A stretch of 64,000 bases of DNA from a virus. Position numbers and translations under genes: made by a program. The DNA is taken from positions 62,001-126,000 of IMG/VR virus record IMGVR_UViG_3300010883_028422; one strand, 5' to 3'. Within the stretch, counting starts at the first letter, position 1, and every line of letters starts with the position of its first letter. This document shows positions 30,929-59,654 of the stretch, one piece after another. The notes below the pieces were generated by a model. That model was given only the letters and a program-made list of their open reading frames with translations. It did not search any database and was not told where the DNA came from.

Positions 30929-30960
30929 TAATTATAATTAAATATAGAGGGCATTGTGAT

Positions 30961-32790: not shown

Positions 32791-32815
32791 AATACAAACT
32801 TAGTGGAGGCGTTAT

Positions 32816-33811
32816 ATGCTTACGGCAGTTATAACTGGAGTTGCAGGCCAAGATGGTAGTTATTTAGCAGAGTTATTGTTGGATAAAGGCTACAAGGTGG
32901 TTGGAATATCTAGGCGAAAAAGTGTTAATGATGGATTGCAGAATTTAGAACACAATGTGTTGGGTAATGATAATTTTACACTTTTGAATGGAGATATAAA
33001 GGATTCAACTTTTATATATAGGTGCGTTGAGGAATACAGGCCAGATGAGTGGTATAACTTAGCTGCACAATCTAATGTTGGACATTCTTTTAAAGAACCA
33101 GTTGAAACATTCGGAACTAACGCATTAGCTGTAGTTATTCAGCTTGAAGCCATAAGATCCCTGTCTCCATCGACAAAGTTTTATCAAGCATCTACCAGCG
33201 AGCTATGGGGAGGGCTCAGCTGCCCCAAAACAGGATATAGCGAGAGCATGAGGTTTTATCCAAGATCTCCATATGGCGTATCCAAGTTATCAGCGTATTG
33301 GTCAGTGGTCAATCATAGAGATGCGTATGGCTTGTTTGCATGTAGCGGTATACTCCATAATCACAGCAGCCCAAGGAGGGGTTTGGACTTCGCAACAAGA
33401 AAAATAACCAGAGGCGTTGCGGAGATTACTCTTGGGCTGAAGGATAAGATAAGAATGGGTGATTTGAGCGCATTTCGTGATGAGGGACATTCCAAGGACT
33501 ATGTTGAGGCTATGCATCTTATGTTGCAAAATGATAGCCCAAAGGATTATGTTATTTCCACGGGAACCGGAGCAACTATAGAGGATATGTTTAGGCATGT
33601 CGCATCTTTTGCAGGTTTAAAATTTGAAGACCTCTATGAGGTAGATGAAAGATTTATGAGGCCGTCTGAAGTGCCGTTTTTGCTTGGTAATTCATCGTTA
33701 GCAAAGAGCGAGCTTGGATGGAGTCCAAAATATACATGGAAAAACCTATTAGAAGAGATGTTCGAGAGTGATTTGTTGGTAATTTCAAATGAAAGATGGA
33801 AAAATAGTTAA
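32816..33811 (+). CDS. gmd: GDP-mannose 4,6-dehydratase-like enzyme
   Basis: 331 residues, preceded by GGAGG. AVITGVAGQDGSYLAELLL is the characteristic NADP loop of GMD; also SRRKS, the YNLAAQSNVGHSF segment, QASTSELWG with the catalytic Ser/Thr-Glu, SPYGVSK with Tyr-Lys, and NHSSPRRGLDFATRKI, the GMD signature around substrate. It converts GDP-mannose to GDP-4-keto-6-deoxymannose, precursor of GDP-fucose, rhamnose or perosamine. No reductase or aminotransferase for the following step is in the window. The 3' end overlaps the next gene by 23 bases. Confidence 0.9.
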   Translation: MLTAVITGVAGQDGSYLAELLLDKGYKVVGISRRKSVNDGLQNLEHNVLGNDNFTLLNGDIKDSTFIYRCVEEYRPDEWYNLAAQSNVGHSFKEPVETFGTNALAVVIQLEAIRSLSPSTKFYQASTSELWGGLSCPKTGYSESMRFYPRSPYGVSKLSAYWSVVNHRDAYGLFACSGILHNHSSPRRGLDFATRKITRGVAEITLGLKDKIRMGDLSAFRDEGHSKDYVEAMHLMLQNDSPKDYVISTGTGATIEDMFRHVASFAGLKFEDLYEVDERFMRPSEVPFLLGNSSLAKSELGWSPKYTWKNLLEEMFESDLLVISNERWKNS

Positions 33812-34751
33812 AAAAATAGTAATAATAGCGTTTAATTTTGGATTTGCAGGAAGATATGTTAACGGTCCAGGGATATGTCTTTATAATTTATATAATATCC
33901 TAAAAAAACACACTTCTGTTGACGTTAAGATATTTACAAAAATGCATGCGCATGGGCAATTTAATTCAGACGATATATTTTCGATAGATGATAAAGAATA
34001 TCTGTCAGAATGCATAAAAAATTGTGATATTCTGCATCATTGGAGTGGCCTTGCAAATATTTATTCTAATATAATAAAATTTGCTAATTTTTGTAATAAA
34101 AAAGTTATAATTGGTCCAAATGTAATTGACACTGTGGACTTTTTAAAAGAAAAGAAGTTTTTGTCAAAAATCAACTATGATAGGATTTTATTGGTAAATA
34201 ATAGGATAAAATACAGAGCTTTAGATTTTTATGGCATAGATAGCGACCTATTAAGCATATTTATGGTCGGACCAGACTTAGACTTGTGGTCGCCAAGTGA
34301 CATATGTAATGAAAAGATTTTGTGGAAAGGCAACTCGGCACAAGGCGTTAAGGGTGTATCTTTTGGGGTCGAGGTGTCTAAAAATTTGCCACAATATGAT
34401 TTCGATTTCGTTGGACGCCCAACCCCATATAATTATTTTAAGCACATAGGGCCCGCAAAGGAGTATAAACTATTCTTTAGCACGTCAATGAGTGAGACGA
34501 TGGGCATGGGGTTGGCAGAACAGTGGGCTGCGGGTATACCATCTATAACACACCCAAAGATTTATCTTCATGGTGAAAATTATATCACGGGCATAATAAC
34601 GGATAGGTCCGTAAGCGCTTATTGTGATGCAATTGTTGAAATAATGGAGAATCCTGTTTTGTATAAAAATTTATCTTTAGGCGCAAGAAAGTATATGGAA
34701 GACAACTTTTCACATGAGTCAATTGCGTCAAAATATCTTTCTTTATTGTAA
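33789..34751 (+). CDS. Glycosyltransferase (GT-B, divergent)
   Basis: 320 residues. The opening FGFAGRYVNGPGICLYNLYNIL has the glycine-rich acceptor loop; FMVGPDLDLWSP is an interdomain turn; MSETMGMGLAEQWAAGIPSITHP replaces the EX7E donor motif (E..GMGLAEQ.AAG.P). It is more divergent than the first seven transferases. It is placed downstream of the sugar-nucleotide genes and upstream of a GT2 enzyme, so it may use the GDP-deoxysugar made by the neighbouring dehydratase (inference). Confidence 0.75.
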   Translation: MKDGKIVKKIVIIAFNFGFAGRYVNGPGICLYNLYNILKKHTSVDVKIFTKMHAHGQFNSDDIFSIDDKEYLSECIKNCDILHHWSGLANIYSNIIKFANFCNKKVIIGPNVIDTVDFLKEKKFLSKINYDRILLVNNRIKYRALDFYGIDSDLLSIFMVGPDLDLWSPSDICNEKILWKGNSAQGVKGVSFGVEVSKNLPQYDFDFVGRPTPYNYFKHIGPAKEYKLFFSTSMSETMGMGLAEQWAAGIPSITHPKIYLHGENYITGIITDRSVSAYCDAIVEIMENPVLYKNLSLGARKYMEDNFSHESIASKYLSLL

Positions 34752-34763
34752 TTGAGCTTAAAT

Positions 34764-35471
34764 ATGTTAGTTGATGTTATAATTCCTGTATATAATCCAG
34801 GTCATTATTTGGATGAGGCCTTAAAAAGCTGTATAAAACAGACATATAGTGATTATAAAATAACTGTAGTTGATGATTGCTCTACTGAAAATATAATGCC
34901 GATCATCTCCAAGTATAGAGGTATTTCTTATATAAGAAACACTGAGAATATGGGGCCGGCTGCCTCCAGAAATGTTGGAATTAAGAATTCTAACGGAAGC
35001 CTTATAAGCCTTTTGGATGCAGATGATGTTTGGGACCCAAATAAGTTATTATATAGCGTTAGAGAGTTTAAGAAGGACGGCGGCATAGGCATGACCTGTG
35101 GTAACTACAGAATAATGACAAGCTCTAGAGTTTTAAAGCCATTTTATAAAAAAAGTATAGCCATAAATCATAGGATGCTGATGAAGAACAATTATGTCGC
35201 ATCAGGCTCTGTTACGGTAAAACGAAGCGTTATTGATGACGTTGGATTGTTCAATAAGGATTATTGGATTGCAGAGGATTATGATTTATGGTTAAGAATA
35301 AGCGAAAAGTATCCTATAAAGTATATACATAAAATTCTATATTATTATAGGATAGTGAAAGGCGGCGGATCACTAACTCAGAGGGACGATGTGCAGGAGG
35401 CGCATGAATTTAATTTATCAAAGATAAAAAAAGAGTCAGCCTGGAGGGTTAGGGAGAGTGAAGACAGCTAG
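34764..35471 (+). CDS. Glycosyltransferase family 2 (GT-A)
   Basis: Start ATG 34764 (MLVDVIIPVYNPG) is taken over a TTG at 34752. 235 residues. VDVIIPVYNPGHYLDEALKS, TVVDDCSTE, NMGPAASRNVGI and ISLLDADDVWDPNKL with the metal-binding DXD (DAD) are the standard GT2 landmarks. The acceptor part WIAEDYDLWLRIS has the ED general base region. It is the only GT-A-fold enzyme of the island. Its 3' end overlaps the DUF2061 gene by 14 bases. Confidence 0.92.
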   Translation: MLVDVIIPVYNPGHYLDEALKSCIKQTYSDYKITVVDDCSTENIMPIISKYRGISYIRNTENMGPAASRNVGIKNSNGSLISLLDADDVWDPNKLLYSVREFKKDGGIGMTCGNYRIMTSSRVLKPFYKKSIAINHRMLMKNNYVASGSVTVKRSVIDDVGLFNKDYWIAEDYDLWLRISEKYPIKYIHKILYYYRIVKGGGSLTQRDDVQEAHEFNLSKIKKESAWRVRESEDS

Positions 35472-35691
35472 CGTAAGCCGCAAAAGACATATTTTAAAAA
35501 CAATAACCTGGAGAGTGATTGGAACTTTAGATACAATGCTTCTTGGATGGATTGTAACCGGGAGTGCACTAATCGGTCTAAAAATCAGTGCTATTGAGTT
35601 AGTCACAAAAATGTTATTGTATTATTTTCATGAAAGATTATGGTATCGTTTTAATTTTGGAATAAAAAATAGGGATAAACTGAATGGTTAA
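35458..35691 (+). CDS. DUF2061 small membrane protein
   Basis: 77 residues from a GTG start preceded by GGAGG nine bases upstream. RKRHILKTITWRVIGTLDTMLLGW is the hallmark opening of DUF2061, followed by a hydrophobic stretch and IELVTKMLLYYFHERLWYRF. The family is usually a two-helix membrane protein and often sits near sulfate activation genes (CysC/CysN/CysD) in bacteria. Here it lies in an island with two sulfotransferase-like genes, so a link to sulfonucleotide supply is tempting but unproven. It overlaps neighbours at both ends. Confidence 0.85.
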   Translation: MKTASVSRKRHILKTITWRVIGTLDTMLLGWIVTGSALIGLKISAIELVTKMLLYYFHERLWYRFNFGIKNRDKLNG

Positions 35692-38179
35692 AAAATTTGA
35701 TATATCTTCTGTAAAAAATAAAAGAATTTTAATAAAAACTTTTATGTTTGAATCAGGACTTTGGTATTTGGCAAAATCACTTGGCGATATATTGTCTAAA
35801 AATAATTATGTACATTATATTCCAAAGGCTAGATATACAGATTCAGGAAGAAGGTTTTCGAGGTCATATCCTGAGCCAAACAATAAGGATGAGTTTGTAG
35901 ATATAAACTTTGATGAATTTTCTGCAGAAAACAGCGTTGAGGGGCAGATATCCAAATGTATAGACAAATATAATATTGACTTGGTTATATCATTCGAAAC
36001 TCTAATGGAGTGTGGCCAGTGGGTTGTCAACTGCAAGATAAAGCATGACGTAGAAATATATGACGTTCCAATGCCAGAGTGGACAACAAAAAGGTTCGTA
36101 GAGTCCGATGCATATAAATCTTTTGATAAAATAATATGCCTGACGGACTCGTGCAGTGATATCTTTAAAGATTATAATAACGTGGTTAGATCTAATTGGC
36201 TTTATATGAAAAAGAAGGAGGTGGAGAAGTCAGATGATGTTGTTAGGTTTTATCACCCAGCATCATTGAATCTAAAATTTTCTACCAAAAATACATCTAA
36301 TGTTATAGACGCCTTCCTGTCATTTTTAAATACAAGTGATTTACAGACACCTGTTGAGCTAATATTGACTGGAGGCATTTCGGATGAACATTCGGACAGA
36401 TGCAATGAGCATGATAATATATTAATAATTAATAATTATATTGATAGACAAGGAGTTTTTGATATATTGGAAAAAACAAATTGCCTTATCTCCCCCTCAA
36501 AAAGAGAGGGGCTTGGACTATCTTTTTTTGAGGCAAAAGCATTTGGATGTAGTATTATAACAACAAATTATCCGCCGATGAGTGATTATGGCGACTATCT
36601 GTGTAAGGTCTCCAGCTTGGTTTCTGATGAAAAAATTATACCACTGGCAGTCGTTAAGTCTGAAGACATCTTGAATCAATTAGAAAAATATTATGAGGAA
36701 TTTATAATGGCAAAAAATAGCAAAACTACTGCAAAAGAAGTAGAGGTTAAACCGAAAAGGAAGACGAAAAAGGCTGTCGAAAAAGAAAATCAGGATTTGC
36801 TTTCTGCGTTTTCAGCGAAAACTTCTTCTGATGACACGCTTGACGCAAGTGAAGATAACACCTCTGCTGAAAGTGTAGACATGGATAATGCCGTATTAGA
36901 AAAGTTAAAAAGCAAAATGGGCAAAAATACAACCGTTAGGAGTGATGCTATGCCGAACCTTATTGATGAAAGAGCTGTAGCCATAAATATGGCTGTTATC
37001 GGAGTTGGTCAGGCCGGCTCGAGGCTTGCAGAGGAATTTTATTTAAATGGATATGATGTTGGAGTAATTAATACATCTGCGCAAGATTTAGAGTTTATAA
37101 ATGTAACGCCAACGCAAAAGCTTCTTATCGAGGGAAGCCTAGGCGGAACCGGTAAGGATTTGGATCTCGGAAGGGATCTTTTTAGTGAAAGTGAGGAGTT
37201 GATCTATAACTTTGTATCTGAAGTTTCGGACGGAAACGACATGGTTTATCTTGCCGTATCTGGCGGCGGTGGAACCGGGTCGTCTTCTGTTGATTTGTTA
37301 GTTCCAATGCTATTTAACCTTGGGCTTCCAGTTGGTGTTATATATGTATTGCCAAAGGCAACTGAGGATGCAAAGTCTAAAAAGAATTCAATTGAAACGT
37401 TATCTAGATTGGCACGAATGACATCTGATAGCTTGGTTTCAAACCTTATAGTTGTAGACAATGCTAGAATTGAGCAAATTTATGCAAATTTGAGTCAATC
37501 TCAATTTTGGAAGTCTGCAAATAAGGCGATTATAGAGCCGCTTCATTTGTTTAATACGCTTACAGCATCAGCATCGGATCACACATCTATGGACCCGAGT
37601 GATTTTGGAAAAATAATATCATGTGGTGATTGCTCAATATACGGCGTTATGGAGGTTGATAATTATATGGAGGAGACCGCGCTTGCAGAGGCCGTTATAG
37701 ACAGCCTTGGAACAAGCATGCTCGCGGAAGGCTTTGATGTTGCTCAAACACGAGTTGGTGGCGTAATCATCACCGGGCCAAGAGAGGCCCTTGATAGGCT
37801 TCCGGCTATAAATATAAATTATTGTTTCCATATGATATCTGAGCAAACCAATGGGGCGTCTATATTCCAGGGCATATACAGCTCTGGAAGCACGTCTGAT
37901 GGGGCTAATGATGCAGTTAAGATATACTCCTGGTTTGCCGGGCTGGGGCTGCCCAAGGACAGGGTTGACAGCTTAAAGAGAGAGAGCGCGATGCAATCAG
38001 AAATTGCTGCAGAAAAAGAGAAAAATCGGGCGTCAGCTATGGTTCTAGATCTCGGTGAGGATAAGGTTAACTCCGTTACGGAAGAGGTTAGCAGAAAGAT
38101 TAAAAAGAAGAAGTCTGGGTTTAACAAGCTCCAGAGAACCTCCAGAAAGTCTATTATAGATAAAAGAAGAAGGCGATAA
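35684..38179 (+). CDS. Glycosyltransferase-tubulin/FtsZ-like GTPase fusion
   Basis: 831 residues in one frame. Residues 1-341 are a GT-B-like transferase (ILIKTFMFESGLWYLAKSL; RFYHPASLNLKFS; SPSKREGLGLSFFEAKAFGCSIITTN). Residues 342-432 are a charged linker starting MAKNSKTTAKEVEVKPKRK. From 433 comes a tubulin-superfamily GTPase: GVGQAGSRL at 440, NTSAQDLEF, the GTP signature GGGGTGS at 527-533, and a T7-type loop DPSDF at 637-641 with both acidic residues needed for polymer-coupled hydrolysis. The last 28 residues are strongly basic, as in TubZ-type tails. Phage tubulins (PhuZ, TubZ) centre or segregate phage DNA. Fusion to a glycosyltransferase is unusual, and the junction carries its own ribosome binding site. 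Confidence 0.82.
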   Translation: MVKKFDISSVKNKRILIKTFMFESGLWYLAKSLGDILSKNNYVHYIPKARYTDSGRRFSRSYPEPNNKDEFVDINFDEFSAENSVEGQISKCIDKYNIDLVISFETLMECGQWVVNCKIKHDVEIYDVPMPEWTTKRFVESDAYKSFDKIICLTDSCSDIFKDYNNVVRSNWLYMKKKEVEKSDDVVRFYHPASLNLKFSTKNTSNVIDAFLSFLNTSDLQTPVELILTGGISDEHSDRCNEHDNILIINNYIDRQGVFDILEKTNCLISPSKREGLGLSFFEAKAFGCSIITTNYPPMSDYGDYLCKVSSLVSDEKIIPLAVVKSEDILNQLEKYYEEFIMAKNSKTTAKEVEVKPKRKTKKAVEKENQDLLSAFSAKTSSDDTLDASEDNTSAESVDMDNAVLEKLKSKMGKNTTVRSDAMPNLIDERAVAINMAVIGVGQAGSRLAEEFYLNGYDVGVINTSAQDLEFINVTPTQKLLIEGSLGGTGKDLDLGRDLFSESEELIYNFVSEVSDGNDMVYLAVSGGGGTGSSSVDLLVPMLFNLGLPVGVIYVLPKATEDAKSKKNSIETLSRLARMTSDSLVSNLIVVDNARIEQIYANLSQSQFWKSANKAIIEPLHLFNTLTASASDHTSMDPSDFGKIISCGDCSIYGVMEVDNYMEETALAEAVIDSLGTSMLAEGFDVAQTRVGGVIITGPREALDRLPAININYCFHMISEQTNGASIFQGIYSSGSTSDGANDAVKIYSWFAGLGLPKDRVDSLKRESAMQSEIAAEKEKNRASAMVLDLGEDKVNSVTEEVSRKIKKKKSGFNKLQRTSRKSIIDKRRRR
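36707..38179 (+). other. Internal start for stand-alone tubulin-like product (490 aa)
   Basis: GAGGAA at 36695-36700 lies six bases before an in-frame ATG at 36707 (residue 342 of the long ORF), exactly where the glycosyltransferase ends and the charged linker begins. This is as good as the sites of true starts here. The tubulin-like GTPase may therefore be made alone, in addition to or instead of the fusion. Confidence 0.65.
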
Positions 38180-43560: not shown

Positions 43561-45486
43561 ATGCCAAAGATAAGTAAAGACAAAAAGCTTTATAATATGC
43601 TTGAATCCCACATAAGTAAAGAGTCTGACGTGTGCTGGGAGGGGACTCTTAAGGACTATATTAGATTGATAATTGAGAATCCAAGTGTGCATACAAGTGC
43701 GCACAAAAGAGTTCTTTCGATGATTGAAAGCCATGGCCTGGAAAGGGATGACTCTGGTGATGTTATTAGTTATAATTTCTTTTCAGGTGATCTGTTTGGC
43801 GTTTCAGACTCCATAAGCCAAATTATGGAGTACCTGCGTGCAGCTGCCGCAGGGAGTGAGGTCGGCAGAAGGATTCTTCTATTATATGGACCAACATCTT
43901 CTGGAAAATCTCAACTTGCAATTCTTTTGAAAAAGGGGCTCGAGGCCTACTCCAAAACTGATAACGGAGCCGTATATGCCCTCGCTGATTCGCCAATGCA
44001 TGAGGACCCGCTGGTTGCAATACCGCAGGAGTTGCGGCAATCGCTTCGTGATGATTATGGCATAAACGTCAGTGGGGAGCTGACGCCGCTAATGAATCTT
44101 CTTTTGAAAGAAAAGTATAACGGAGATTTTTTAAAATTGCCGGTAAAAAGAATTGTTATTTCAGAAAGATCAAGAGTCGGGATTGGAACGTTTGTTCCAT
44201 CAGATAAGAAGAGTCAGGACGTATCAGAATTAGTCGGCTCTATTGATTTAAGCACAATTGGTAAATATGGCGCAGAATCAGACCCAAGAGCATATAGGTT
44301 CGATGGAGAGCTAAATATTGCAAATAGAGGAATTATGGAGTTTGTTGAGATGCTAAAAGTTGATCAAAAATTTCTATATGTTCTTTTAACACTTGCGCAA
44401 GAAAAGAATATCAAGACTGCAAGGTTTCCTCTTATTTATGCAGATGAATTTATATTGGCTCATACGAATGAGACGGAATATAATAGGTTTTTGGCAAAAA
44501 ATGAGATGGAGGCATTGCATGATAGAATTATAGTTGTAAAAGTTCCATACAATCTATCTGTTGATGAGGAGGTTAGGATTTATGATAAATTAATAAATCA
44601 ATCAGACTTATCCGGCATTCATATCGCGCCGTATACCCTGTATTGCGCAGCCATGTTTAGCGTGCTGTCTAGACTAATGGACTCCAGCAACCAAAGCCTT
44701 ACTTTGATGAATAAGATGAGGCTCTATAATGGCGAAGAGATAGAGGGATTTACACTCTCAGATGTTCCTGACCTAAAGGACGAGTTTTCTGGCGAAGGAA
44801 TGTCCGGGATATCTCCAAGGTATGTTATAAATAGACTCTCTGCTGTTTTAGCAGAAGATGGAGCAACTGCAATAACGCCAATAGATATTATAAGATCAAT
44901 AAGAAAGGGCTTTAAGTCTAATCCGAAGCTTGATGAAAAGGCGATTGAGGGGTTGGATAATATATTAACAAAAGTTATTGAGGAGTATAGCAAGCTTGCA
45001 AGGAATGAGGTTCAAAAGGCATTTTTTGTTAATTTTAATGATGAAATACAATCTCTTTTGTCAAACTATATGGATCATGTTGGTGCATATTTAGATGGAA
45101 CCAAAGTCGAGGATGAGTGGGGAGATACGCATGATCCAAACGAAAGACTCATGCGGTCTATTGAAGAAAAGATATCAATTACAGAGTCTGGTAAGAAATC
45201 CTTTAGACAAGAAATATACAGAAAGATGCTCAGAAGCATTAGCAGCAATGATGATGGAATGTATAACTATAAGGATCATTCAAGACTAAGAGAGGCTCTT
45301 GAGAAGCAATTGTTTGAAGAAAGGCAGGATATCATAAGACTTACTGTATCGACAAGAAATCCCGATGATGGTGCTTTAAAGAGAATCAATGTTGTTATAG
45401 AAACTTTGTGTGAAAAACATGGTTATACCGAAGAGAGTGCGAACAAGTTATTAAGATATGTGAGCTCTTTGATGGCGAGGAATTAG
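43561..45486 (+). CDS. prkA: PrkA-type AAA+ protein kinase (YeaG family)
   Basis: 641 residues, the full length of the family (E. coli YeaG has 644). The AAA_PrkA domain fills the first ~380 residues: SYNFFSGDLFGVSDSISQIMEYL, Walker A GPTSSGKS (110-117), DSPMHEDPL, ISERSRVGIGTF and FPLIYADEFILAHTNETEY near the Walker B/sensor region. The C-terminal half (from ~390) is the kinase-like PrkA domain, with GISPRYVINRLSAVLAE. In bacteria it belongs with DUF444 and SpoVR proteins in stationary-phase, stress and sporulation control; kinase and protease activities have both been proposed. It is followed after 7 bases by its usual partner. Confidence 0.94.
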   Translation: MPKISKDKKLYNMLESHISKESDVCWEGTLKDYIRLIIENPSVHTSAHKRVLSMIESHGLERDDSGDVISYNFFSGDLFGVSDSISQIMEYLRAAAAGSEVGRRILLLYGPTSSGKSQLAILLKKGLEAYSKTDNGAVYALADSPMHEDPLVAIPQELRQSLRDDYGINVSGELTPLMNLLLKEKYNGDFLKLPVKRIVISERSRVGIGTFVPSDKKSQDVSELVGSIDLSTIGKYGAESDPRAYRFDGELNIANRGIMEFVEMLKVDQKFLYVLLTLAQEKNIKTARFPLIYADEFILAHTNETEYNRFLAKNEMEALHDRIIVVKVPYNLSVDEEVRIYDKLINQSDLSGIHIAPYTLYCAAMFSVLSRLMDSSNQSLTLMNKMRLYNGEEIEGFTLSDVPDLKDEFSGEGMSGISPRYVINRLSAVLAEDGATAITPIDIIRSIRKGFKSNPKLDEKAIEGLDNILTKVIEEYSKLARNEVQKAFFVNFNDEIQSLLSNYMDHVGAYLDGTKVEDEWGDTHDPNERLMRSIEEKISITESGKKSFRQEIYRKMLRSISSNDDGMYNYKDHSRLREALEKQLFEERQDIIRLTVSTRNPDDGALKRINVVIETLCEKHGYTEESANKLLRYVSSLMARN

Positions 45487-45493
45487 TGTTACA

Positions 45494-46678
45494 ATGCCAA
45501 AGAATAGATTAACAGATAATCTATCAGATATATGGAAGTTGAAAAAACGAGGCAAGCGCGATTCTGATAGACATAAAGAGTTGGTTAAGGATGCTATAAA
45601 AAAGCAGGGAAGGGACCTTATAACGGAATATAACATTATAAGGTCTGATGGAAATAAAAAAGTAAAAGTTCCCATCAGATTTCTTGATCAATATAAGATT
45701 AAAAATGGAAGAAACCCTGAAAAGGGTGTCGGACAAGGTATTGATGCAAAGCCTGGAGACAGGTATAGGCTCAGGAATCCAAATAAAGTGCCAGGGTCTG
45801 GTGGGGCCGGAGATGAAGAGAGCGAGGCAACGTTTGAGGCTGAAGTCTCCATTGATGAGCTTGTAGATATACTTCTTGAAGAGCTTAATCTTCCATGGAT
45901 GGAACCGAAAGATTCTTCCGAGATTGAGATAGAGAATGATGAATTTTCATCTATAGAAAAGAAGGGTATAATCCCCAACCTGGACATAAAAAAGACGTTA
46001 ATGGAGAATATAAAGAGAAACGCTGCCGCTGGCGATGCTCATGTTGGTGATTTTAAAAATGAAGATTTGCGTTATAAAGTTTGGGATATAGAAAAAGAAT
46101 ATCAATCAAATGCCGCTATATATATGATGATGGATAGAAGTGGCTCTATGGGTGAGGAAAAGAGGTATATAGCAAAAAGTTTTTATTTTTGGATGGGTCA
46201 ATTTTTAAAGAGAAGGTATAAGAATATAAAGATATACTTTATAGCGCATGATGTTAAGGCTTATTTTGTAAATGAAAATGAATTTTTTGCAATAAATAGT
46301 GGAGGAGGGACGAAATGCAGCAGTGCGTTTAAAGCTGCTTACGAGCATATATCGGCTAATCATAGTGCGCAATATTGGAATAATTATGTTTTTGAATTTT
46401 CTGATGGTGATAATTGGGGTGATGACAACAGGCTGTGCGTTGAATATGTTGAAAAATTATTGCCATTGGTAACAGCAATAGGTTACGGTGAAATAGAGGT
46501 GGGTGGTGCTGGAAGGGCATGGCTTGGTGGTGAAAATTTACTATCAACAATTTTGCATAATGAAATAAGCAGAACAAGATTTGTATCCCTAAAATTAGAA
46601 TCAAAAGATGATGTTTTTGATGCTCTTAGAACATTTTTTAATGTAGACAGGTTTGGATATAGGGCGGAGAAAAAATGA
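45494..46678 (+). CDS. yeaH: DUF444/UPF0229 vWA protein (YeaH family)
   Basis: 394 residues, slightly shorter than E. coli YeaH (427). The N-terminal SDRHKELVKDAIKKQGRDLI and VPIRFLDQYKIKNG segments, then a Gly/Asp-rich stretch, are typical of DUF444. The vWA-like domain starts near 200 with MMMDRSGSMGEEKR (MIDAS at D214-S216-S218), followed by IYFIAHDVKAYFV, SGGGTKCSSAF (the MIDAS threonine) and FEFSDGDNWG. It stands in the order PrkA - YeaH - SpoVR known from bacterial chromosomes. It probably forms a complex with the AAA+ partner, as MoxR-type ATPases do with vWA proteins (inference). Confidence 0.93.
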   Translation: MPKNRLTDNLSDIWKLKKRGKRDSDRHKELVKDAIKKQGRDLITEYNIIRSDGNKKVKVPIRFLDQYKIKNGRNPEKGVGQGIDAKPGDRYRLRNPNKVPGSGGAGDEESEATFEAEVSIDELVDILLEELNLPWMEPKDSSEIEIENDEFSSIEKKGIIPNLDIKKTLMENIKRNAAAGDAHVGDFKNEDLRYKVWDIEKEYQSNAAIYMMMDRSGSMGEEKRYIAKSFYFWMGQFLKRRYKNIKIYFIAHDVKAYFVNENEFFAINSGGGTKCSSAFKAAYEHISANHSAQYWNNYVFEFSDGDNWGDDNRLCVEYVEKLLPLVTAIGYGEIEVGGAGRAWLGGENLLSTILHNEISRTRFVSLKLESKDDVFDALRTFFNVDRFGYRAEKK

Positions 46679-48102
46679 ATATTACATTAGAAGAGGCTAT
46701 AGAGAAGTTGACAGAAGACGCAGAGTCTATAGGGCTGGAGTATTTTCCAGTAAATTTTGAAGTAGTTCCTATAGATGTTATGCTTGAAGTTATGAGTTAT
46801 GGCTTGCCGACGAGGGCTAGGCATTGGTCGTATGGAAAGTCATATGAATATCAAAAAATAAATGGTGAAATGGGATTCTCAAAAGTATATGAGATTGTAT
46901 TAAACAACAACCCTTCTTATGCCTTTTTGCTTGACACAAATCCTCTAATAGCAAATGTTATGGTTGCTGCGCATGTCATAGGTCATGTTCATTTTTTTAC
47001 AAATAATTTTTTATTCAAAGAAACAGATAGAAAGATGGTTTATCAGGCTGCGGCCAGAGCTCAGAGGATCGAGGAGTATATTGAAAAGTATGGAATAGAA
47101 AAGGTTGAGCATTTTATGAACATTGCATTTTCTATGGACAAGCATATAGATTGGCACAAGGGAGTGCATAGGCCCATCTATTCTGGACCTAAAAAAATAT
47201 TTAAGAAGAATGTTAGAAGGGAATTTGATGATTTATTAGATAAAAACAAATCAGGCGTTAAAGAGGTGACTATAAATGAAGGCTTCCCTCCTCATAAAGA
47301 ATGGGATCTGCTTTGGTTGTTTATAAATTATGCGCCACTTGAAGAGTGGCAAAGAGATATTTTTGAGATAATAAGAAAAGAGTCATTTTATTTTTATCCA
47401 CAGTTTTATACAAAAATTATGAACGAAGGTTTTGCGAGTTATATTCATGCAGAATTAATGCACAGGTTTGATGATATTAGCCCAGAAGATCACTTGGAGT
47501 TTTGTAAAATACACGAAAGAGTCGTCCAGCCCGGAACTAACAAGCTTAATATAAATCCGTATTTTTTAGGATTTACAATTTTTAATGATATAAAAAAGAG
47601 ATGGGACAAAAAGCATGAGGACGGAGAGTCTGAGATAACTGGACTACAAAAAATATATAAAGTTGTAGAAACTGAAGATGATATATCGTTCGTCAAAGGT
47701 TATTTGACGCAAGAGCTTGTTGATGAGTTAAAAATGTTTGCTTATAAAAGAGCTTTTGATAAGTCAAGAAATGAATTTATTGAAATAGAAAGTACTGACG
47801 CAGACGACGTTGCAGAAAGTGTTATTTCAAAGCTTTATAACTATATGTCTCCAGAAGTATATATAGAGAATGCATCTTCTGACGGCATAGAGCTTGTCCA
47901 TAGCCCTTCAGAGGGCTCAACCTTGGACGAGAAGCATCTGGAGAAAGTTATGGGATACATATATGAGCTATGGGGCGGTCTTGTTAATATTTCAACGAAA
48001 GATGTTAATGGTGAGGAGGTGAATTATACATATGATGAGCTTGGATTCAGTCATATAACGGAAGATGACTTGACCTCTCCGCTATTTACTGGGATGGACT
48101 AA
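46675..48102 (+). CDS. spoVR: SpoVR-family protein (YcgB)
   Basis: 475 residues (family usually 470-510), overlapping the YeaH gene by 4 bases. EYFPVNFEVVPIDVMLEVMSYGLPTRARHWSYGKSYE is the unmistakable opening of SpoVR, followed by VMVAAHVIGHVHFF, the FYFYPQFYTKIMNEGFASYIHAELM metal-like H/E region and NPYFLGFTIFNDI. The biochemical role is unsettled; in Bacillus it affects the spore cortex, in enteric bacteria it is part of the sigma-S stress response. Its presence next to PrkA and YeaH shows the phage took a complete module. Confidence 0.95.
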   Translation: MNITLEEAIEKLTEDAESIGLEYFPVNFEVVPIDVMLEVMSYGLPTRARHWSYGKSYEYQKINGEMGFSKVYEIVLNNNPSYAFLLDTNPLIANVMVAAHVIGHVHFFTNNFLFKETDRKMVYQAAARAQRIEEYIEKYGIEKVEHFMNIAFSMDKHIDWHKGVHRPIYSGPKKIFKKNVRREFDDLLDKNKSGVKEVTINEGFPPHKEWDLLWLFINYAPLEEWQRDIFEIIRKESFYFYPQFYTKIMNEGFASYIHAELMHRFDDISPEDHLEFCKIHERVVQPGTNKLNINPYFLGFTIFNDIKKRWDKKHEDGESEITGLQKIYKVVETEDDISFVKGYLTQELVDELKMFAYKRAFDKSRNEFIEIESTDADDVAESVISKLYNYMSPEVYIENASSDGIELVHSPSEGSTLDEKHLEKVMGYIYELWGGLVNISTKDVNGEEVNYTYDELGFSHITEDDLTSPLFTGMD

Positions 48103-48156: not shown

Positions 48157-48783
48157 ATGAACAAGGTTGGTGAAAAAATGAAAGAAGATAGTGTAGAGGC
48201 GCAGGGTATTGGTGCACCCATTACGAGCACACCGTGTGTAGATTTTTCATTCCAATTTAATACAGCAAAGGAATATGAAAAGGTTGAAAAGAAGATATTT
48301 GCATATATATGTGAAATAGCCAAAGATTGTGGTGAAAATTCGATAAAAAGAGGAGTTATCTCGGTTGTTGGGTGGTTCGATAGTTCAAAAGACTATCTAA
48401 TACCCGGTATGAGGCAGATTGGAAAAAATCCAGTTCAGAAGTATTTAAGCTACTCTATTGCGTCTCATAAAAAAGAGCTCATATCAATGATGAGTGAAAA
48501 CCTTGATGGTGCTTTTGTGATAAATAGAAATGGGCAACTTTTGGGATCCGGAATATACCTAACTGTTGATAATCCAAGCTTTGAGATCCCGGATGGCTCC
48601 GGAACGCGGCATATTACTGCAGCTTCATTCTCCGCAAGAGAGGATGTGCAGAGTATTATAACATTATCTGAGGAAACAAACACCGTTAGGGTATGGAAGA
48701 ACGGAGCATTCGTTGAGCAGTATGAGCCATTTGATGATGAAGGTCAAGATGGTGAAGAGTTGGTAAAGAAGTCAGATAAGTAG
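48157..48783 (+). CDS. Diadenylate cyclase (DAC/DisA_N) domain protein
   Basis: 208 residues from ATG 48157; ATG 48178 with AAGG upstream is an alternative (201 residues). From about residue 60 it reads as a DAC domain: the nucleotide-binding DGAFVI at 117, the G.GTRH.TAA loop around R151-H152, and IITLSEETNTVRVWKNG, matching the family's VSEETG..SV..NG strand. The known RHR triad is RHI here, so one basic residue is changed. DAC enzymes join two ATP into c-di-AMP when dimerised. No sensor or membrane domain is attached. Placed between the PrkA trio and a sigma factor. Activity is uncertain; the fold call is good. Confidence 0.82.
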   Translation: MNKVGEKMKEDSVEAQGIGAPITSTPCVDFSFQFNTAKEYEKVEKKIFAYICEIAKDCGENSIKRGVISVVGWFDSSKDYLIPGMRQIGKNPVQKYLSYSIASHKKELISMMSENLDGAFVINRNGQLLGSGIYLTVDNPSFEIPDGSGTRHITAASFSAREDVQSIITLSEETNTVRVWKNGAFVEQYEPFDDEGQDGEELVKKSDK

Positions 48784-48794
48784 TGGTATGTGAT

Positions 48795-49340
48795 ATGAAT
48801 TTTTTCTCTACATCTAATCTTGACATCAAAATGATGTATATTTCCAATGAGGGTCGTGGCGATGGCTGGATGTATGATTTGTTTGATCATATAAAATTTT
48901 TTGCTAACCATAGAGCTAAGAAGTATGAGAATTCTCCACATTACGACGATATACGGCAAGAGTCTCAGATCGGATTATGGAGTGCTATAAAAACATTTGA
49001 TTATAATAAGAATTTTGATTTTTACAGATGGGCTCAGTGGAATATCTCGTCAAAAATTCGCAATTTTTTATACGAAAATAAAAGATATAGCGCAGTAGTA
49101 TCACGTTCAACAGATAAGTGTTTGCAAGATTACCAAGAGGAGCATCAGTCCAAAGTTGTATTTTTTAATGAAGTATTAAAGAATAATCTCGTTTTAAACA
49201 AAAGAGAATTAAGCATTGTGTTTGATATTTTTATTCTTGAAAAAACATTATCTGAAGTTGGAGGTGATAATAATTTAACACCAGAAGGTGTTAGGAAAAT
49301 AAAAAACAAGGCTATGCTGAAGTTACAAAGATATATTTAG
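48795..49340 (+). CDS. Sigma-70 family RNA polymerase sigma factor (phage type)
   Basis: 181 residues from ATG 48795; GTG 48783 in frame is possible. HYDDIRQESQIGLWSAIKTFD then FDFYRWAQWNISSKIRNFLYE is sigma region 2 (core binding and -10 recognition). A short region 4 lies at the C-terminus: EKTLSEVGG and LTPEGVRKIKNKAMLKL, a helix-turn-helix. There is no region 1.1 or 3. This size is like phage late or middle sigma factors (functionally T4 gp55). It could read the -35-less AGTATAA elements found in this window (inference). Confidence 0.85.
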   Translation: MNFFSTSNLDIKMMYISNEGRGDGWMYDLFDHIKFFANHRAKKYENSPHYDDIRQESQIGLWSAIKTFDYNKNFDFYRWAQWNISSKIRNFLYENKRYSAVVSRSTDKCLQDYQEEHQSKVVFFNEVLKNNLVLNKRELSIVFDIFILEKTLSEVGGDNNLTPEGVRKIKNKAMLKLQRYI

Positions 49341-49361: not shown

Positions 49362-51809
49362 ATGTATTCACATGATGAAGTTAGAGAAAAAACATTAGAA
49401 TATTTTAACAATGATGAGCTTGCTACAAATGTGTTTATAACAAAATATTGTTTAAAGGACAAGGATGGCTTATTTCGAGAGCTAACTCCAGATGATATGC
49501 ACAGAAGGCTGTCAAGAGAATTCGCAAGAATAGAAGCAAAGTTTGGAGGCAGCTCTTCAATGGATGAAGATGCTATATATTCTTATTTAAAAGATTTTAA
49601 ATATATTGTTCCGCAAGGCTCGCCAATGATGGGGATTGGAAATGATTTTGCAAACGTTTCCTTGTCAAACTGTGTAGTTGTCGGCTCTCCAGAGGACAAC
49701 ATATCGTCAATTATTGATGCCGGCAGAGACATAGCTAATCTTTTTAAACGAAGATGTGGCGTTGGTCTTGATATATCAAAATTACGACCGGAAGGCTCTT
49801 TTGTAAATAACTCTGCTGGCACAACAACTGGTGCATGGTCATTTTCTGATTTTTATTCATATATATGTAGAATGATTGGTCAAAACGGAAGGCGTGGTGC
49901 ATTGATGCTCACGATGGATATCAGGCATCCAGATATAGAGAAATTTATAAATATGAAAAGAGATCTTTCAAAAGTTACTGGAGCAAATGTTTCAGTAAGA
50001 ATAACGGATGATTTCATGAACGCAGTAAATAATGATGAAAACTACACTTTGCACTTTCCATGTGGTAGTGAGTCTCCTGTGTCAACAAGAGAAATTATAG
50101 CAAAAGATTTATGGAGAAGCATTGTAGAGTCTGCAACCGAAACTGCAGAGCCGGGCCTTTTGATGTGGGACAATATAACAAAGTATCTTCCGGCAAATGA
50201 GTATTCTGAGTATGGATTTGAGACAGTATGCACAAATCCATGTGCGGAAATACCACTATCAGAGTATGATTCGTGTAGACTAATATCTGTTAACCTTAAA
50301 CATTTTGTTATTAATGCATTTGAAGATAATGCGTATTTTGATTTTGATAAGTTTTCGAATGTTGCCAGAGCCGCCATGAGGCTGTCTGATGATTTGGTTG
50401 AGTTAGAAATTGAAAAATTAAACTCCATAATGTTAAGCGCCGACACAGAAGATGAGGTGGCGCTTTGGGGCAAGCTGCTAAAGGCATGCACTGATGGAAG
50501 AAGAACTGGGCTGGGAACTCATGGGCTTGCTGATGTGCTTGCCAGATTAAATATGCCATATGATAGTGATGATGCGATAGAGGCTGTTGAAAAATTATAT
50601 TCAATTTATAAAAATATTAGCTACGACGAAAGCTCAAATCTTGCAAGCGAAAGAGGCTCGTTTGATGTTTTTGACTGGGACATTGAGTGTGATAACTTAT
50701 TTATAAAAAGTCTAGATAAGGGTGTTGTTAAAAAAATATCTAAATTTGGCAGAAGAAATATATCAATACTAACAAATGCTCCTACTGGTTCTGTATCAAT
50801 CATGTCTCAAACAAGCTCTGGGTTAGAACCTGTTTTTAGAAATTCATATGTAAGAAGAAGAAAAATTTCTCATAATGAATCTGATGTAGAGCCAGATTTT
50901 ATCGACAAGCTTGGTGATAGGTGGCTTGAATTTAATGTTTTTCATCATAATGTTGAAGAGTATTTATCTTTAAAATTTAATGATAATATGTATACCAAAG
51001 ATGATATTCCGTCATTTTTTACAGAATCTAACGATATAGACTGGATAAAAAGAATTGAGATGCAGGAGGCTATTCAGAAGAATATAGATCACGCTATATC
51101 ATCTACAATAAATTTGCCAAAAGAAACTTCTAGCGATGTTGTTGCCGAGCTATACATGGAGGGGTGGAAGAGGGGCCTTAAGGGTATCACCGTGTATGTT
51201 GACGGCTCCAGAGATGGTGTTTTGATATCAAAAGAAGATAAAGGCGGCACCGCCTCGCCGTTTCCACAGGTAGCGGCGCCAAAGAGGCCTGAATTTCTTG
51301 ATTGTAATATTCACCATGCGACAATTGGTGGAGAAAAGTGGACAATATTGGTTGGCACGTATGAGGGAAAGCCGTACGAGATTATGGGCGGCTTAGCAAC
51401 ATTTGTTGAGATACCAAAAAAATATAGGGTTGGAAGTATAGTTAAACATCCAAGAAAAAGTATGAATTCGATATATGACTTGCAGTTTGGAGAAAATGGA
51501 AATGAGGTTGTCATAAAAAATATTGTTAAAGTTTTTGATAATCCAAACCAGGGGGCTTTTACAAGAATGATATCACTTGCGCTAAGGCATGGTGCAAGCA
51601 TTAATTATGTTGTTGAGCAGTTAAGAAAAGATAAGGAATCAGATATGTTTAGCTTCTCTAAGTGTATTGCTCGGGTTTTAAAGCAATATATAAAAGATGG
51701 AACGAGGGTGTCTGGGGGCGAGGCATGTTTATCGTGTAATAGAAAGAATTTAATATACCAAGATGGGTGCGTTAACTGCCAAGACTGCGGCTGGGCCGGA
51801 TGTGGATAG
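49362..51809 (+). CDS. nrdJ: Class II (B12-dependent) ribonucleotide reductase
   Basis: 815 residues. Landmarks: VPQGSPMMGIGNDFANVSLSNC with the first redox cysteine, NLFKRRCGVGLDISKLRP, GRRGALMLTMDIRHPDI, TNPCAEIPL (N292, C294, E296, the radical site), the TGSVSIMSQTSSGLEPVF loop and GWKRGLKGITVYVDGSRDG. The C-terminus has a TSCPD-like domain (TIGGEKWTILVG, FVEIPKKYRVGS) and a Cys-rich tail (CLSCNRKNL, CVNCQDCGWAGCG) for reduction. No small radical subunit follows, as expected for class II, so the host must provide cobalamin. It makes dNTPs for replication. Confidence 0.93.
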   Translation: MYSHDEVREKTLEYFNNDELATNVFITKYCLKDKDGLFRELTPDDMHRRLSREFARIEAKFGGSSSMDEDAIYSYLKDFKYIVPQGSPMMGIGNDFANVSLSNCVVVGSPEDNISSIIDAGRDIANLFKRRCGVGLDISKLRPEGSFVNNSAGTTTGAWSFSDFYSYICRMIGQNGRRGALMLTMDIRHPDIEKFINMKRDLSKVTGANVSVRITDDFMNAVNNDENYTLHFPCGSESPVSTREIIAKDLWRSIVESATETAEPGLLMWDNITKYLPANEYSEYGFETVCTNPCAEIPLSEYDSCRLISVNLKHFVINAFEDNAYFDFDKFSNVARAAMRLSDDLVELEIEKLNSIMLSADTEDEVALWGKLLKACTDGRRTGLGTHGLADVLARLNMPYDSDDAIEAVEKLYSIYKNISYDESSNLASERGSFDVFDWDIECDNLFIKSLDKGVVKKISKFGRRNISILTNAPTGSVSIMSQTSSGLEPVFRNSYVRRRKISHNESDVEPDFIDKLGDRWLEFNVFHHNVEEYLSLKFNDNMYTKDDIPSFFTESNDIDWIKRIEMQEAIQKNIDHAISSTINLPKETSSDVVAELYMEGWKRGLKGITVYVDGSRDGVLISKEDKGGTASPFPQVAAPKRPEFLDCNIHHATIGGEKWTILVGTYEGKPYEIMGGLATFVEIPKKYRVGSIVKHPRKSMNSIYDLQFGENGNEVVIKNIVKVFDNPNQGAFTRMISLALRHGASINYVVEQLRKDKESDMFSFSKCIARVLKQYIKDGTRVSGGEACLSCNRKNLIYQDGCVNCQDCGWAGCG

Positions 51810-52209: not shown

Positions 52210-53502
52210 TTGTCAGTTAGAAAAAATTTTATTTTAGACACAAGCGTTCTTCTTCATCATGAAGACTCTATCCATGCATTTCCAGGCTCAAACATAATAA
52301 TACCGATAGAAGTTCTTGAAGAAATCGATACTTTTAAGACAAGGCATGACAGTGTGGGTAATGCCGCAAGGTATGTTAATAGATTTTTAGATAAATTAAG
52401 GTCTCAAGGAAATTTGCAGGATGGTGTTTTACTAAAGAATAATCAAGTTATAAGAGTTTCTTCTGATTCTGACCTCTCCCTGCTTCCGGGCGGGTTCGAT
52501 GATAATAAGGATAGCAGAATAATATCTGTAGCAAAAAAATTATCAATTGAACAAGATAATGTATTTTTGGTATCTAGAGATATATCTATGCGAGTCAAAT
52601 GTGACTCTATAGGCATAAACTCTGAGAACTATATAAGAGAAAAGGCTGTAGTAAATAGAGCGGAGGCTTATACCGGGGTGTCTGTTTTAAACGTTTCAAA
52701 AACAGAGATTGATAATTTTTATAAAAGTGGAATGATAGACTTAGATGAAGAGCTATATGTAAATGAATGTGTTGTTTTAAAGAGTGAGGAGAGAACTAGT
52801 GCTCTGGCTATTTCCGATGGAAATGGCGGGCTAAGGAGGCTCTTTACGAATTCAAAAGATAATTTTTCAATTCAAGGTATTTCTCCAAGAAACAAGGAGC
52901 AAAGATTTTCTTTTGAGCTTTTATTGAACCCAAAGGTTAATATGGTCACCCTAACCGGCATGGCTGGTAGTGGGAAGACCCTCATATCTATTGCATCTGC
53001 AATGGAGCAACTGTTGGGTGGCGTTTATGATAAGATAATAATCTCAAGACCCGTACAAAGTATGAGCGGCGACATAGGGTTTCTTCCGGGAACAAAGGAG
53101 GAGAAGATGAGGCCGTGGATACAGCCTATATTTGATAATTTAGAATATATATACAATGGCAAGCATGGATATATAGACTTAATGGTTCAAAAGGGTAAGA
53201 TTGAAATTGAGGCCTTGACTCATATAAGGGGGAGGAGTATCCCAAATACATTTTTTATATTAGATGAAGCTCAAAATATAACTATTCATGAGGCAAAGGC
53301 ACTGCTAACAAGGATGGGTGAGGGATCGAAAATTGCTTTGCTTGGTGATCTTGAGCAGATAGATAGCCCGCATCTTGATACATCAACATCCGGGTTGTCA
53401 ACAATTGTTGAGTTGTTTAAAGATTTTGAGCTGTCTGGACACATAACACTGCTAAAGGGCGAGAGAAGCGAGCTTGCAACATATGCTGCAAAAATTATGT
53501 GA
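52210..53502 (+). CDS. phoH: PIN-PhoH protein (PhoH2 type)
   Basis: 430 residues from a TTG start with GGAG six bases upstream; no other start fits the PIN domain opening. Residues 1-140: PIN nuclease-like domain (FILDTSVLLHHED, VLEEIDTFK, DSRIISVAKKL, VFLVSRDISMRVK) retaining the acidic residues for metal binding. Residues ~225-430: PhoH ATPase with Walker A GMAGSGKT (250-257), ISRPVQSMSGDIGFLPGT, FFILDEAQNIT and LLGDLEQID. The two-domain form acts as an RNA helicase/RNase in bacteria; phoH genes are very common in aquatic phages, with unclear purpose. Confidence 0.93.
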   Translation: MSVRKNFILDTSVLLHHEDSIHAFPGSNIIIPIEVLEEIDTFKTRHDSVGNAARYVNRFLDKLRSQGNLQDGVLLKNNQVIRVSSDSDLSLLPGGFDDNKDSRIISVAKKLSIEQDNVFLVSRDISMRVKCDSIGINSENYIREKAVVNRAEAYTGVSVLNVSKTEIDNFYKSGMIDLDEELYVNECVVLKSEERTSALAISDGNGGLRRLFTNSKDNFSIQGISPRNKEQRFSFELLLNPKVNMVTLTGMAGSGKTLISIASAMEQLLGGVYDKIIISRPVQSMSGDIGFLPGTKEEKMRPWIQPIFDNLEYIYNGKHGYIDLMVQKGKIEIEALTHIRGRSIPNTFFILDEAQNITIHEAKALLTRMGEGSKIALLGDLEQIDSPHLDTSTSGLSTIVELFKDFELSGHITLLKGERSELATYAAKIM

Positions 53503-57219: not shown

Positions 57220-58821
57220 TTAGTTACAGCCATATATTGCATATTCTATATCAATCATACTGCCATCTTCAGGTATATCTGATAAAAAGATTATAGAGTT
57301 TGTTGATGAGTCATATGACCATGTTGATGACACAGTCCCATCGACACTCACAACTATCGAGCCCTCTATTGGCTCATGACTTAAGGCGAATAGATTGCTA
57401 GCTATAGAGTCTCTGGCTAGCTCTTCCAGCTGGGTACCCCAATCGGTACTACACATCGATACAAACGTTCCACCGAGGTCCGAAACTACATCGTAATATC
57501 CGTCACCAAACGTTGCATATGTTCCTCCGCCAGAGCATCCGGACGGGTAGTCTCCCGCTACTGCATGCGCCGATACTAATGCCGAAGAGCCCTTCAGACT
57601 AAGGAGGTGTGCGGAATAATCTGATGTTCCGAATGTTGAATATGATGATGAATGATCTGGTTCATCAGATATATATATTACAACAAATTTTGCACCAGTT
57701 CGCATAAAAGTTCCCGCAGTGTCCGCCGGTCCACCAACTGTTGTCGCCACATATGATTCATACAGCCCCCTCTCCATTGCGCTTCCGTGTGTGCCTATTG
57801 AGGTAATAATGCTATTTACTTCGGCAATCGGGTCTGCACTAGAATTTGTTATTATTGTTCCATCCACAAATTCATCGCCATTATCTGTCGTTATAAATCC
57901 AATTTTATAATCAACTCCTGATGCTGAAAATATGTTAATGAATGAGTCAAAGTTGTTTGCGAGGCTAGTTTGGTTTCTATACATTGATCCGGAATTATCT
58001 ATTACGAATAATATGTCTGACTCTAATAACCCATCTTGTTCGTGCGTATCTGTTATTATATCATAATAAGTTCCTTGGCCCTCTTGGGATGAATATGACA
58101 TTGGATTTAGCGGATCATTAGATGATATTTCTATATACGAATTATCATCAAGGATGTCTAGCGGCACATACCATACGTCCGCCTCTATGTTTGTTCCAGG
58201 TGATATGGTTATCGGCAGTATGGTATTTATATAGCTTTGGTCATATAATTCAAAGTCAACAGGTACTGATGAGAAAAACTCTACATCATCAATTGTAAGA
58301 TCAACATCTCCTAGGTTTGATATTTTGACTAAAATATAATTTTCACAACCTATATCTATTTCTCCAAAATCATGTTCCTCTGGAGTTACCTCTATAACTG
58401 GTGCGGAGCCTATTCCCATTATTGTAACTATGGATTCTGGCTCATCTTCATCATTTGAAAATATACTAATTGAATTTGGATTTGACTCATATGTTATTGG
58501 ATCATATGTTATTGTTACTATAGATTCTTCTTGAGGGTCCAATTCGCCATCTGATATGTTAGATATAGAATATACAGATATTTGATTATTTAAAATAATA
58601 TTATTTAGATATAGGATATCATTTCCTATATTTTTTACTAAAATATCTAGTGACTTTACATCATTTGTTGCATTTAATATTCCAAAATCTAAATGCTCTG
58701 GAGAGACCTCTATTTCTGGAAATAACTCAACACTTTGATCTTCTGATATATTTGATAAATTATAATCAGAGCAGCTAATTAGCGATAAAAATATAGTTGC
58801 AAAAATTAGTTCTTTTGACAT
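57220..58821 (-). CDS. Secreted lipoprotein with vWA domain
   Basis: Start ATG 58821 (MSKELIF), set by AGGGG five bases upstream; a GTG two codons earlier is possible. 533 residues. Signal peptide with lipobox L-I-S-C, Cys17 being the lipid site. Two beta domains of the choice-of-anchor D/ASH type follow (EIEVSPEHLDFG and VIEVTPEEHDFGEI repeat openings). Then a vWA domain: DILFVIDNSGSM with intact MIDAS, IGFITTDNG and VVIYISDEPDH. Such lipoproteins are typical of predatory or social former Deltaproteobacteria. As a phage gene it would act on the host surface, perhaps in adhesion or superinfection exclusion. Confidence 0.85.
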   Translation of the reverse strand: MSKELIFATIFLSLISCSDYNLSNISEDQSVELFPEIEVSPEHLDFGILNATNDVKSLDILVKNIGNDILYLNNIILNNQISVYSISNISDGELDPQEESIVTITYDPITYESNPNSISIFSNDEDEPESIVTIMGIGSAPVIEVTPEEHDFGEIDIGCENYILVKISNLGDVDLTIDDVEFFSSVPVDFELYDQSYINTILPITISPGTNIEADVWYVPLDILDDNSYIEISSNDPLNPMSYSSQEGQGTYYDIITDTHEQDGLLESDILFVIDNSGSMYRNQTSLANNFDSFINIFSASGVDYKIGFITTDNGDEFVDGTIITNSSADPIAEVNSIITSIGTHGSAMERGLYESYVATTVGGPADTAGTFMRTGAKFVVIYISDEPDHSSSYSTFGTSDYSAHLLSLKGSSALVSAHAVAGDYPSGCSGGGTYATFGDGYYDVVSDLGGTFVSMCSTDWGTQLEELARDSIASNLFALSHEPIEGSIVVSVDGTVSSTWSYDSSTNSIIFLSDIPEDGSMIDIEYAIYGCN

Positions 58822-58832
58822 AAGCACCCCTG

Positions 58833-59654
58833 TTATTCCTCTATAAAATTATATATATCATTTATTGATATTGCTAAAGCGCCATATGACGGAACTGTTG
58901 CAAATACCAGCCCTATCATTTCATTATTTTTATTATAAACAGGACTTCCGCTATGCCCTGGAAGAATTATTCCTGATATAAATATAAAATCATCTCCATT
59001 GTGTGACAAGTTTTGCAAAGAAACTTGGTCTCTGCCAAGATGTCCGGAAACAAATGTTTCTAATATGGTTGGGAATATTCCGGTTGGCCCACCTATTATA
59101 TATATTTTATCAAATTGATCAATTATTACCTCATCACTTGCTAACGTAGTGGGCTTTATGTATCCAGTCATTCCAAGCAAGCATAAGTCGAGCCCACCGC
59201 TTGTTTTTAAAATGCTTGCTATTTTGGCATCTTTTAATGGTGTGCTTATCCTTGGCGAGCTAGAGTCTTCAAGTATTATAGCCATTAGTTGGCTCAGGAG
59301 TGCATCTTCACAAAAATGATTATTTGTTAATATATAAGATAAATTTTTATCCTTATCATATCCAATGCTGACTCCGGTTGCGCTACCAATAACCTCCCAG
59401 TTGGGCGAAGGTATGCCGCTTACTCTTGAATCAAGATTAATCATTGATAGCTTAACTACTGGCTTTAACATATCTCTTTTTTTACTAGCGGAGCTATGCT
59501 CTGGCTCCACTTTTAAAAGAGCGCTTATGTCGTTTTTTATAATATCAGAATTTTTATTAATTTTTGCCTGCATCAATAGTAATATTAATGGTATTGCTAA
59601 AGCTAAAGCAAATAATATTCTTTTTGTATAAACTTTGCATACTTTATTATTCAC
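58833..59654 (-). CDS. Membrane-anchored trypsin-like serine protease
   Basis: 273 residues from GTG 59654 (no ribosome binding site; start uncertain). One signal anchor (residues 13-30: LFALALAIPLILLLMQA), then an extracytoplasmic S1-type protease with a full catalytic triad: H113 in LTNNHF, D156 in GGLDLCLLG, S235 in GHSGSPVYN, and a final GLVFATVPSYGALAI strand. No PDZ domain, unlike DegS/HtrA. First gene of the minus-strand islet; the lipoprotein starts 11 bases on. It may process surface proteins or entering competitors (inference). Confidence 0.85.
   Translation of the reverse strand: MNNKVCKVYTKRILFALALAIPLILLLMQAKINKNSDIIKNDISALLKVEPEHSSASKKRDMLKPVVKLSMINLDSRVSGIPSPNWEVIGSATGVSIGYDKDKNLSYILTNNHFCEDALLSQLMAIILEDSSSPRISTPLKDAKIASILKTSGGLDLCLLGMTGYIKPTTLASDEVIIDQFDKIYIIGGPTGIFPTILETFVSGHLGRDQVSLQNLSHNGDDFIFISGIILPGHSGSPVYNKNNEMIGLVFATVPSYGALAISINDIYNFIEE

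Follow-up and report, generated by a model that had tools for sequence, protein, structure and literature searches.

The window, i.e., the whole stretch of 64,000 nucleotides analysed here, comes from a virus record of 135,425 bases (IMG/VR, IMGVR_UViG_3300010883_028422), probably incomplete, of which it covers bases 62001-126000. An open reading frame on its plus strand is confirmed at 48157-48783, and the product carries a diadenylate cyclase (DAC) domain. The ATG at 48178 is probably a better start than the one at 48157, because it is preceded by an AAGG and because the relatives start near the same methionine, so that the product would be of about 201 amino acids. The features of the locus are collected in Table 1.

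Table 1. Genes and motifs at the DAC locus (coordinates in the window).
Feature	Position	Strand	Basis and remarks
PrkA-family AAA/kinase	43561..45486	+	Pfam AAA_PrkA 6.2e-117, PrkA 6.4e-70
YhbH/YeaH (DUF444) protein	45494..46678	+	Pfam 7.2e-83; NCBIfam spore_yhbH 2.1e-109
SpoVR-family protein	46675..48102	+	Pfam 1.5e-104; directly upstream of DAC in 17/17 contigs
Phage DAC (diadenylate cyclase domain) protein	48178..48783	+	Pfam DAC; probable true start; longer ORF from 48157
DAC domain (residues 27-195), modelled part	48235..48741	+	AlphaFold pLDDT 83.6, pTM 0.81; Foldseek
DGA motif (D117-A119)	48505..48513	+	D, G in 12/12 phage sequences; A in 11/12 (Ser in L066)
GTRH-I loop (G149-I153)	48601..48615	+	Invariant, 12/12 phage sequences
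SEET strand (S171-T174)	48667..48678	+	S171, E172 in 12/12; E173 = Gln once
Sigma-70-like factor	48783..49340	+	Pfam Sigma70_r2 8.5e-8; GTG overlaps DAC stop by one base (TAGTG)
Ribonucleotide reductase large subunit (conserved block)	49362..51809	+	Pfam 2.1e-94; synteny
PIN-PhoH protein, end of conserved block	52210..53502	+	Pfam PhoH 2.7e-48, PIN_4 1e-25; synteny

A conserved neighbourhood in large tailed phages

The initial annotation, made from the sequence of the window, had placed the gene next to a PrkA trio and a sigma factor, and the Pfam matches confirm these neighbours. They belong to a conserved block that runs in the order DnaB, Zn-ribbon protein, PrkA, YhbH, SpoVR, DAC, sigma factor, ribonucleotide reductase (RNR), a small ORF and PhoH; the sigma factor and the RNR are detected in some members of the block only, and certain contigs stop inside it. 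Together with its flanks, the window also encodes a baseplate wedge protein, helicases other than DnaB, an endolysin, a topoisomerase and a dUTPase, and it gives a weak match to a tail sheath. Between the tail genes and the replication block (18299-38179), we also noticed at least five matches of the phrog_2170 glycosyltransferase type, together with a glutamine-amidotransferase-like protein.

Single-sequence scans of viral and genome contigs with the DAC of the window gave no matches, and the family was reached through a scan with PrkA and then through a family alignment. The PrkA scan brought seven IMG/VR contigs with a PrkA identity of 67-73%, all seven of which carry the DAC, while the DAC is absent from the 29 other PrkA-bearing IMG/VR contigs tested and from six GenBank phage records with a more distant PrkA, three of them from Thermus phages. 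With the family alignment as query, the scan found 16 contigs, the largest of 395 kb, which makes, with the window, 17 contigs and 12 distinct sequences. This DAC is carried by one family of large tailed phages, represented here by environmental sequence alone. A broad DAC scan of viral contigs, in which a narrow pattern was used, found no second viral DAC family. On the cellular side, we found neither a close relative of the phage DAC nor any PrkA, YhbH or SpoVR neighbours at DacZ-like loci.

Thermus phages (such as phiYS40 and Lalka8) and huge phages likewise carry a PrkA-family kinase, and YS40_Isch has an annotated SpoVR; these PrkA-YhbH-SpoVR cassettes, however, show only about 30-35% PrkA identity and come without a DAC in the records tested. 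Two faecal contigs from GenBank labelled "Bacteriophage sp." (L053 and L054; MT836427.1 and MT835774.1) were considered as relatives and rejected: their DACs are of the CdaA type (148-150 bits) with an ordinary RHR, and they are probably bacterial sequence labelled as phage.

Within the block itself, the SpoVR genes of several relatives (L003 14660-17287, L005 18971-21643, L009 12228-14708, L071 5295-7916 and L077 5425-7998) form frames of 827-891 amino acids, with in-frame insertions of about 350-400 amino acids that bear endonuclease motifs of the GDGH/GDGY type and are probable inteins. The RNR of L066 and that of L077 also appear to hold inteins, while the SpoVR (475 aa) and RNR (815 aa) of the window look intein-free.

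A genuine DAC domain under purifying selection

The product is a genuine DAC-domain protein, as the initial annotation had proposed from its motifs, and the proposal is borne out by profile, family-wide alignment and fold alike. The Pfam DAC profile (PF02457, formerly DisA_N) matches residues 106-184 with an E-value of 3e-13 and 49.9 bits, for a curated cut-off of 27 bits, and this cut-off is exceeded by each of the 12 distinct phage sequences. The match goes beyond the motifs and takes in the whole domain, since in the relatives the alignment starts at profile position 4-10 and extends to position 118 of 119. Among NCBIfam models, the best for the window protein is DacZ (NF041371) at 45.3 bits, far from the equivalog cut-off of 430 of a model that covers haloarchaeal full-length proteins; the same model matches seven of seven phage family members, with a best E-value of 6e-17. 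No PHROGs family matches the phage DAC. Among solved chains, those of CdaA come nearest in sequence, with an E-value of about 1e-3 for the single sequence and 1.2e-4 for the family profile.

The DGA, GTRH and SEET motifs reported at first sight are all in the protein, at residues 117-119, 149-152 and 171-174. Of the 169 domain positions, 42 show no variation between the 12 distinct phage sequences; they include D117, G118, Y134, L135, G149, T150, R151, H152, I153, S171 and E172. The nucleotide contacts can be read from the DacA of Staphylococcus aureus, in which D176, G177 and T207 (the last just ahead of RHR) are nucleotide contacts, with Y192 stacking on the base (PMC6368335): the first three align with phage D117, G118 and T150, all invariant, and phage Y134, which aligns with a CdaA tyrosine, is taken as the equivalent of Y192. 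Other invariants near the motifs, such as F158 and W180, are specific to the phage proteins and absent from DacZ and CdaA, and compared with both, the phage proteins have one extra residue ahead of the SE strand. Purifying selection on the gene is strong, with a pN of 0.07-0.27 against a saturated pS of 0.76-0.84 across the 12 distinct sequences. The match is far beyond chance, because 12 divergent sequences have kept the catalytic residues despite saturated synonymous sites.

The structure prediction leads to the same family. AlphaFold was given a 25-row alignment made of the 12 phage rows and of bacterial DACs, known DACs included, and the resulting model recovers the DAC fold: in Foldseek, all 50 of the listed PDB matches are DACs (CdaA, DacA, CdaM and DisA), the best with an E-value of 1.8e-7 and a probability of 1.00. 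The model built from the phage rows alone is poor (pLDDT 55.7), so the added homologues account for some of the confidence.

Placement among DAC classes and the third residue of the RHR triad

In a maximum-likelihood tree of 75 DAC domains, the phage proteins form a clade (support 100/99) that groups with DacZ, apart from CdaA (100/97), at the end of a very long stem of 2.33 changes per column. The phage protein thus looks DacZ-like in its catalytic domain, yet it is no full DacZ. The DacZ/CdaZ proteins (also DacY; Euryarchaeota and some bacteria; NF041371, PF19294 plus PF02457) provide the best profile match and the same DAC domain; they are also of the soluble rather than the membrane type, and a residue other than Arg is common at the third position of their RHR triad. 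What differs is their N-terminal alpha/beta domain, pyruvate-kinase-C-like, which is missing in the phage; bacterial members are only about 27-31% identical. DacZ and CdaZ proteins have been assigned a common N-terminal fold (PMC6741144), and the dacZ of Haladaptatus carries PF19294 (DACZ_N), whereas about 35-45 residues precede the DAC domain of the phage protein and no Pfam match to a DACZ_N or PK-C-like domain is found in it. With CdaA/DacA, which give the best PDB matches in sequence and fold, the phage protein shares the DAC fold and the DGA, GTRH and SEET motifs, but it has Ile instead of Arg at the third RHR residue and falls in a separate clade; inspection of the sequence showed no hydrophobic N-terminal segment comparable to the CdaA transmembrane helices. 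DisA has the DAC domain in common with it, but the profile match is weaker and the phage protein has neither the DNA-scanning linker nor the HhH.

A stand-alone DacZ-like DAC of 202 amino acids with a GARHI loop also lies on a Myxococcota chromosome (L112 in G198, and L192). It is likewise DAC-only, but it is distant in sequence, sits on a long branch and lies near an IS110 transposase and a VWA gene instead of PrkA.

The third residue of the RHR triad deserves particular attention, since the initial annotation had read its Ile as a possible sign of an altered product or of lost synthesis. The residue is Ile153 in all 12 phage DACs. We surveyed this position in named loci and in the cellular DACs of Planctomycetota and Myxococcota genomes. 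Arg is present in 27 of 28 sequences of the CdaA type, while the bacterial DacZ type (n = 33) has Arg in 11, Trp in eight, Ala in four, Gln and Lys in three each, and Ile, Leu, Tyr and Asn in one each, i.e., 22 of 33 without Arg; both annotated dacZ of the archaeon Haladaptatus have His. The third Arg therefore does not define the DAC domain, and the position is free in the DacZ class, the nearest to the phage proteins. In the published RHR mutants the three residues were replaced together (PMC3328451; PMC13022847), so the third one was not probed by them. As a mark of an altered enzyme, Ile153 is rejected in view of the class survey, being ordinary DacZ-class variation.

Proposed function and alternative readings

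The reading we favor, with a probability of roughly 0.6, is that of a DacZ-type diadenylate cyclase that is soluble, stands alone and is predicted to make c-di-AMP, the level of which would be raised during host reprogramming. Two DAC domains would most likely form a head-to-head dimer, in which two ATP would be condensed to c-di-AMP in the course of infection. The gene would be expressed alongside those of PrkA, YhbH, SpoVR, the sigma factor and the ribonucleotide reductase, phage takeover genes, and the rise in c-di-AMP would for this reason be part of the reprogramming of the host. The phages that carry the DAC would thereby probably adjust the internal signalling of their host. Among the targets of c-di-AMP, osmotic and K+ control is the best established (PMC6741144; PMC8646023), and host K+/osmotic and stress physiology would be the most likely target here. 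The DacZ of Haloferax volcanii produces c-di-AMP in vitro; when overexpressed it is lethal, while the D194A mutant is not (PMC6741144). Since the active enzyme has this effect, strong effects on host physiology would be expected from a phage that raises c-di-AMP. Counting against the cyclase reading are the missing N-terminal DacZ domain, the DGS found instead of DGA in L066, the lack of a TrkA_C-type c-di-AMP receptor in the seven phage records tested and the presence of known DACs in the alignment behind the structure model. Moreover, the long stem and the one-residue insertion before the SE strand mean that activity or product could have drifted.

Another reading, with a modest chance of being correct, is that the domain has little or no catalytic activity and is retained as a subunit that binds nucleotides or has a regulatory role: it could sense ATP or c-di-AMP on the PrkA-YhbH-SpoVR module, or serve as a sponge for host cyclic dinucleotides. 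The long stem branch, the loss of the N-terminal domain, the insertion near the SE strand and the fixed place beside SpoVR would all fit it. However, Asp117 and the T-R-H loop are invariant over 12 divergent sequences, and a pure binder is not expected to retain an Asp that is essential for catalysis, as shown by the D194A mutant of DacZ (PMC6741144); adjacency to SpoVR is by itself weak evidence, considering that the entire block is syntenic. A more intimate connection, in which PrkA, YhbH, SpoVR and the DAC would form one phage signalling module where the c-di-AMP of the phage cyclase regulates the PrkA kinase system or is itself regulated by it, is an unlikely but attractive proposal: if true, the little understood PrkA-YhbH-SpoVR trio would gain a second-messenger input. 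In the literature searched, the titles that bring PrkA and c-di-AMP together suggest only incidental co-mentions.

It is quite improbable that the protein is an active cyclase with another or a relaxed product, a cyclic or linear dinucleotide whose part in cyclic-nucleotide immunity would be that of a counter-signal or a decoy, in line with the initial annotation. Host defences that use c-di-AMP isomers do exist, Panoptes making 2',3'-c-di-AMP (PMC12657218), and the phage-specific F158 and W180 near the motifs could be related to such a change. But the argument from Ile is lost with the class survey, PADLOC gives no match to the DAC, YhbH or SpoVR and only a marginal DolB match to PrkA, and no DAC-fold enzyme with a different product was found in the literature examined. 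As for a host fragment or a metagenome mis-assembly, the contig is indeed an IMG/VR record without an isolate, but the chance of this is practically negligible and the idea is already refuted by synteny: the same gene occupies the same place in 16 other contigs, the window and its flanks hold the baseplate wedge, DnaB, RNR, PhoH and endolysin genes besides the weak tail-sheath match, and the search for a close cellular relative was negative.

Many bacteria and archaea either depend on c-di-AMP or keep it under tight control. A virus-borne c-di-AMP synthase would give the virus a direct hold on the ion and stress physiology of its host, and it would act in the direction opposite to that of the known phage proteins that destroy or absorb cyclic nucleotides. 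None of the open-access papers found in our searches describes a DAC encoded by a phage, and DisA, PrkA and SpoVR are all absent from the text of a survey of jumbo phages. The phage protein is a predicted DAC-only cyclase of viral origin, fixed beside the PrkA trio.

Probable host, possible degradation arm and search for a receptor

The host is probably a myxococcotal bacterium, because a full-length lipoprotein encoded at 57220-58827 on the minus strand matches that phylum and hardly Planctomycetota: matches are found in 168 of 237 Myxococcota genomes (best E-value 3e-91, 38% identity), against weak and local ones in 16 of 246 genomes of Planctomycetota, the single control phylum. DACs do occur in Myxococcota genomes. 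The lipoprotein is VWA-like and belongs to a family widespread in Myxococcota, and beside it lies a probable trypsin-like protease, recognised by eye (58833-59654, minus strand); both genes lie on the minus strand of an otherwise plus-strand phage, in a stretch of lower G+C (about 32%), and are probable host-derived cargo.

Some DHH enzymes degrade c-di-AMP or pApA. A DHH phosphoesterase is found in four of seven large DAC-phage records and is absent from the record of the window, which is probably incomplete; that of L188 is weak against the Pfam model and strong against PHROG 4771 (3.5e-81). Its role as a degradation arm for c-di-AMP is only suggestive, PHROG 4771 not being known as specific to the DAC phages. 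No c-di-AMP receptor domain of the TrkA_C type was found in seven phage records tested. In both loci read (L188 and L189), the DHH phosphoesterase adjoins an adenylosuccinate synthetase. The latter enzyme is found in all six DAC-phage contigs of at least 220 kb that were tested (G003, G006, G042, G045, G046 and G047), four of which have the DHH gene; the synthetases of L188 and L189 belong to PHROG 1211 and retain the Asp of the GDE.KGK motif that is typical of PurA.
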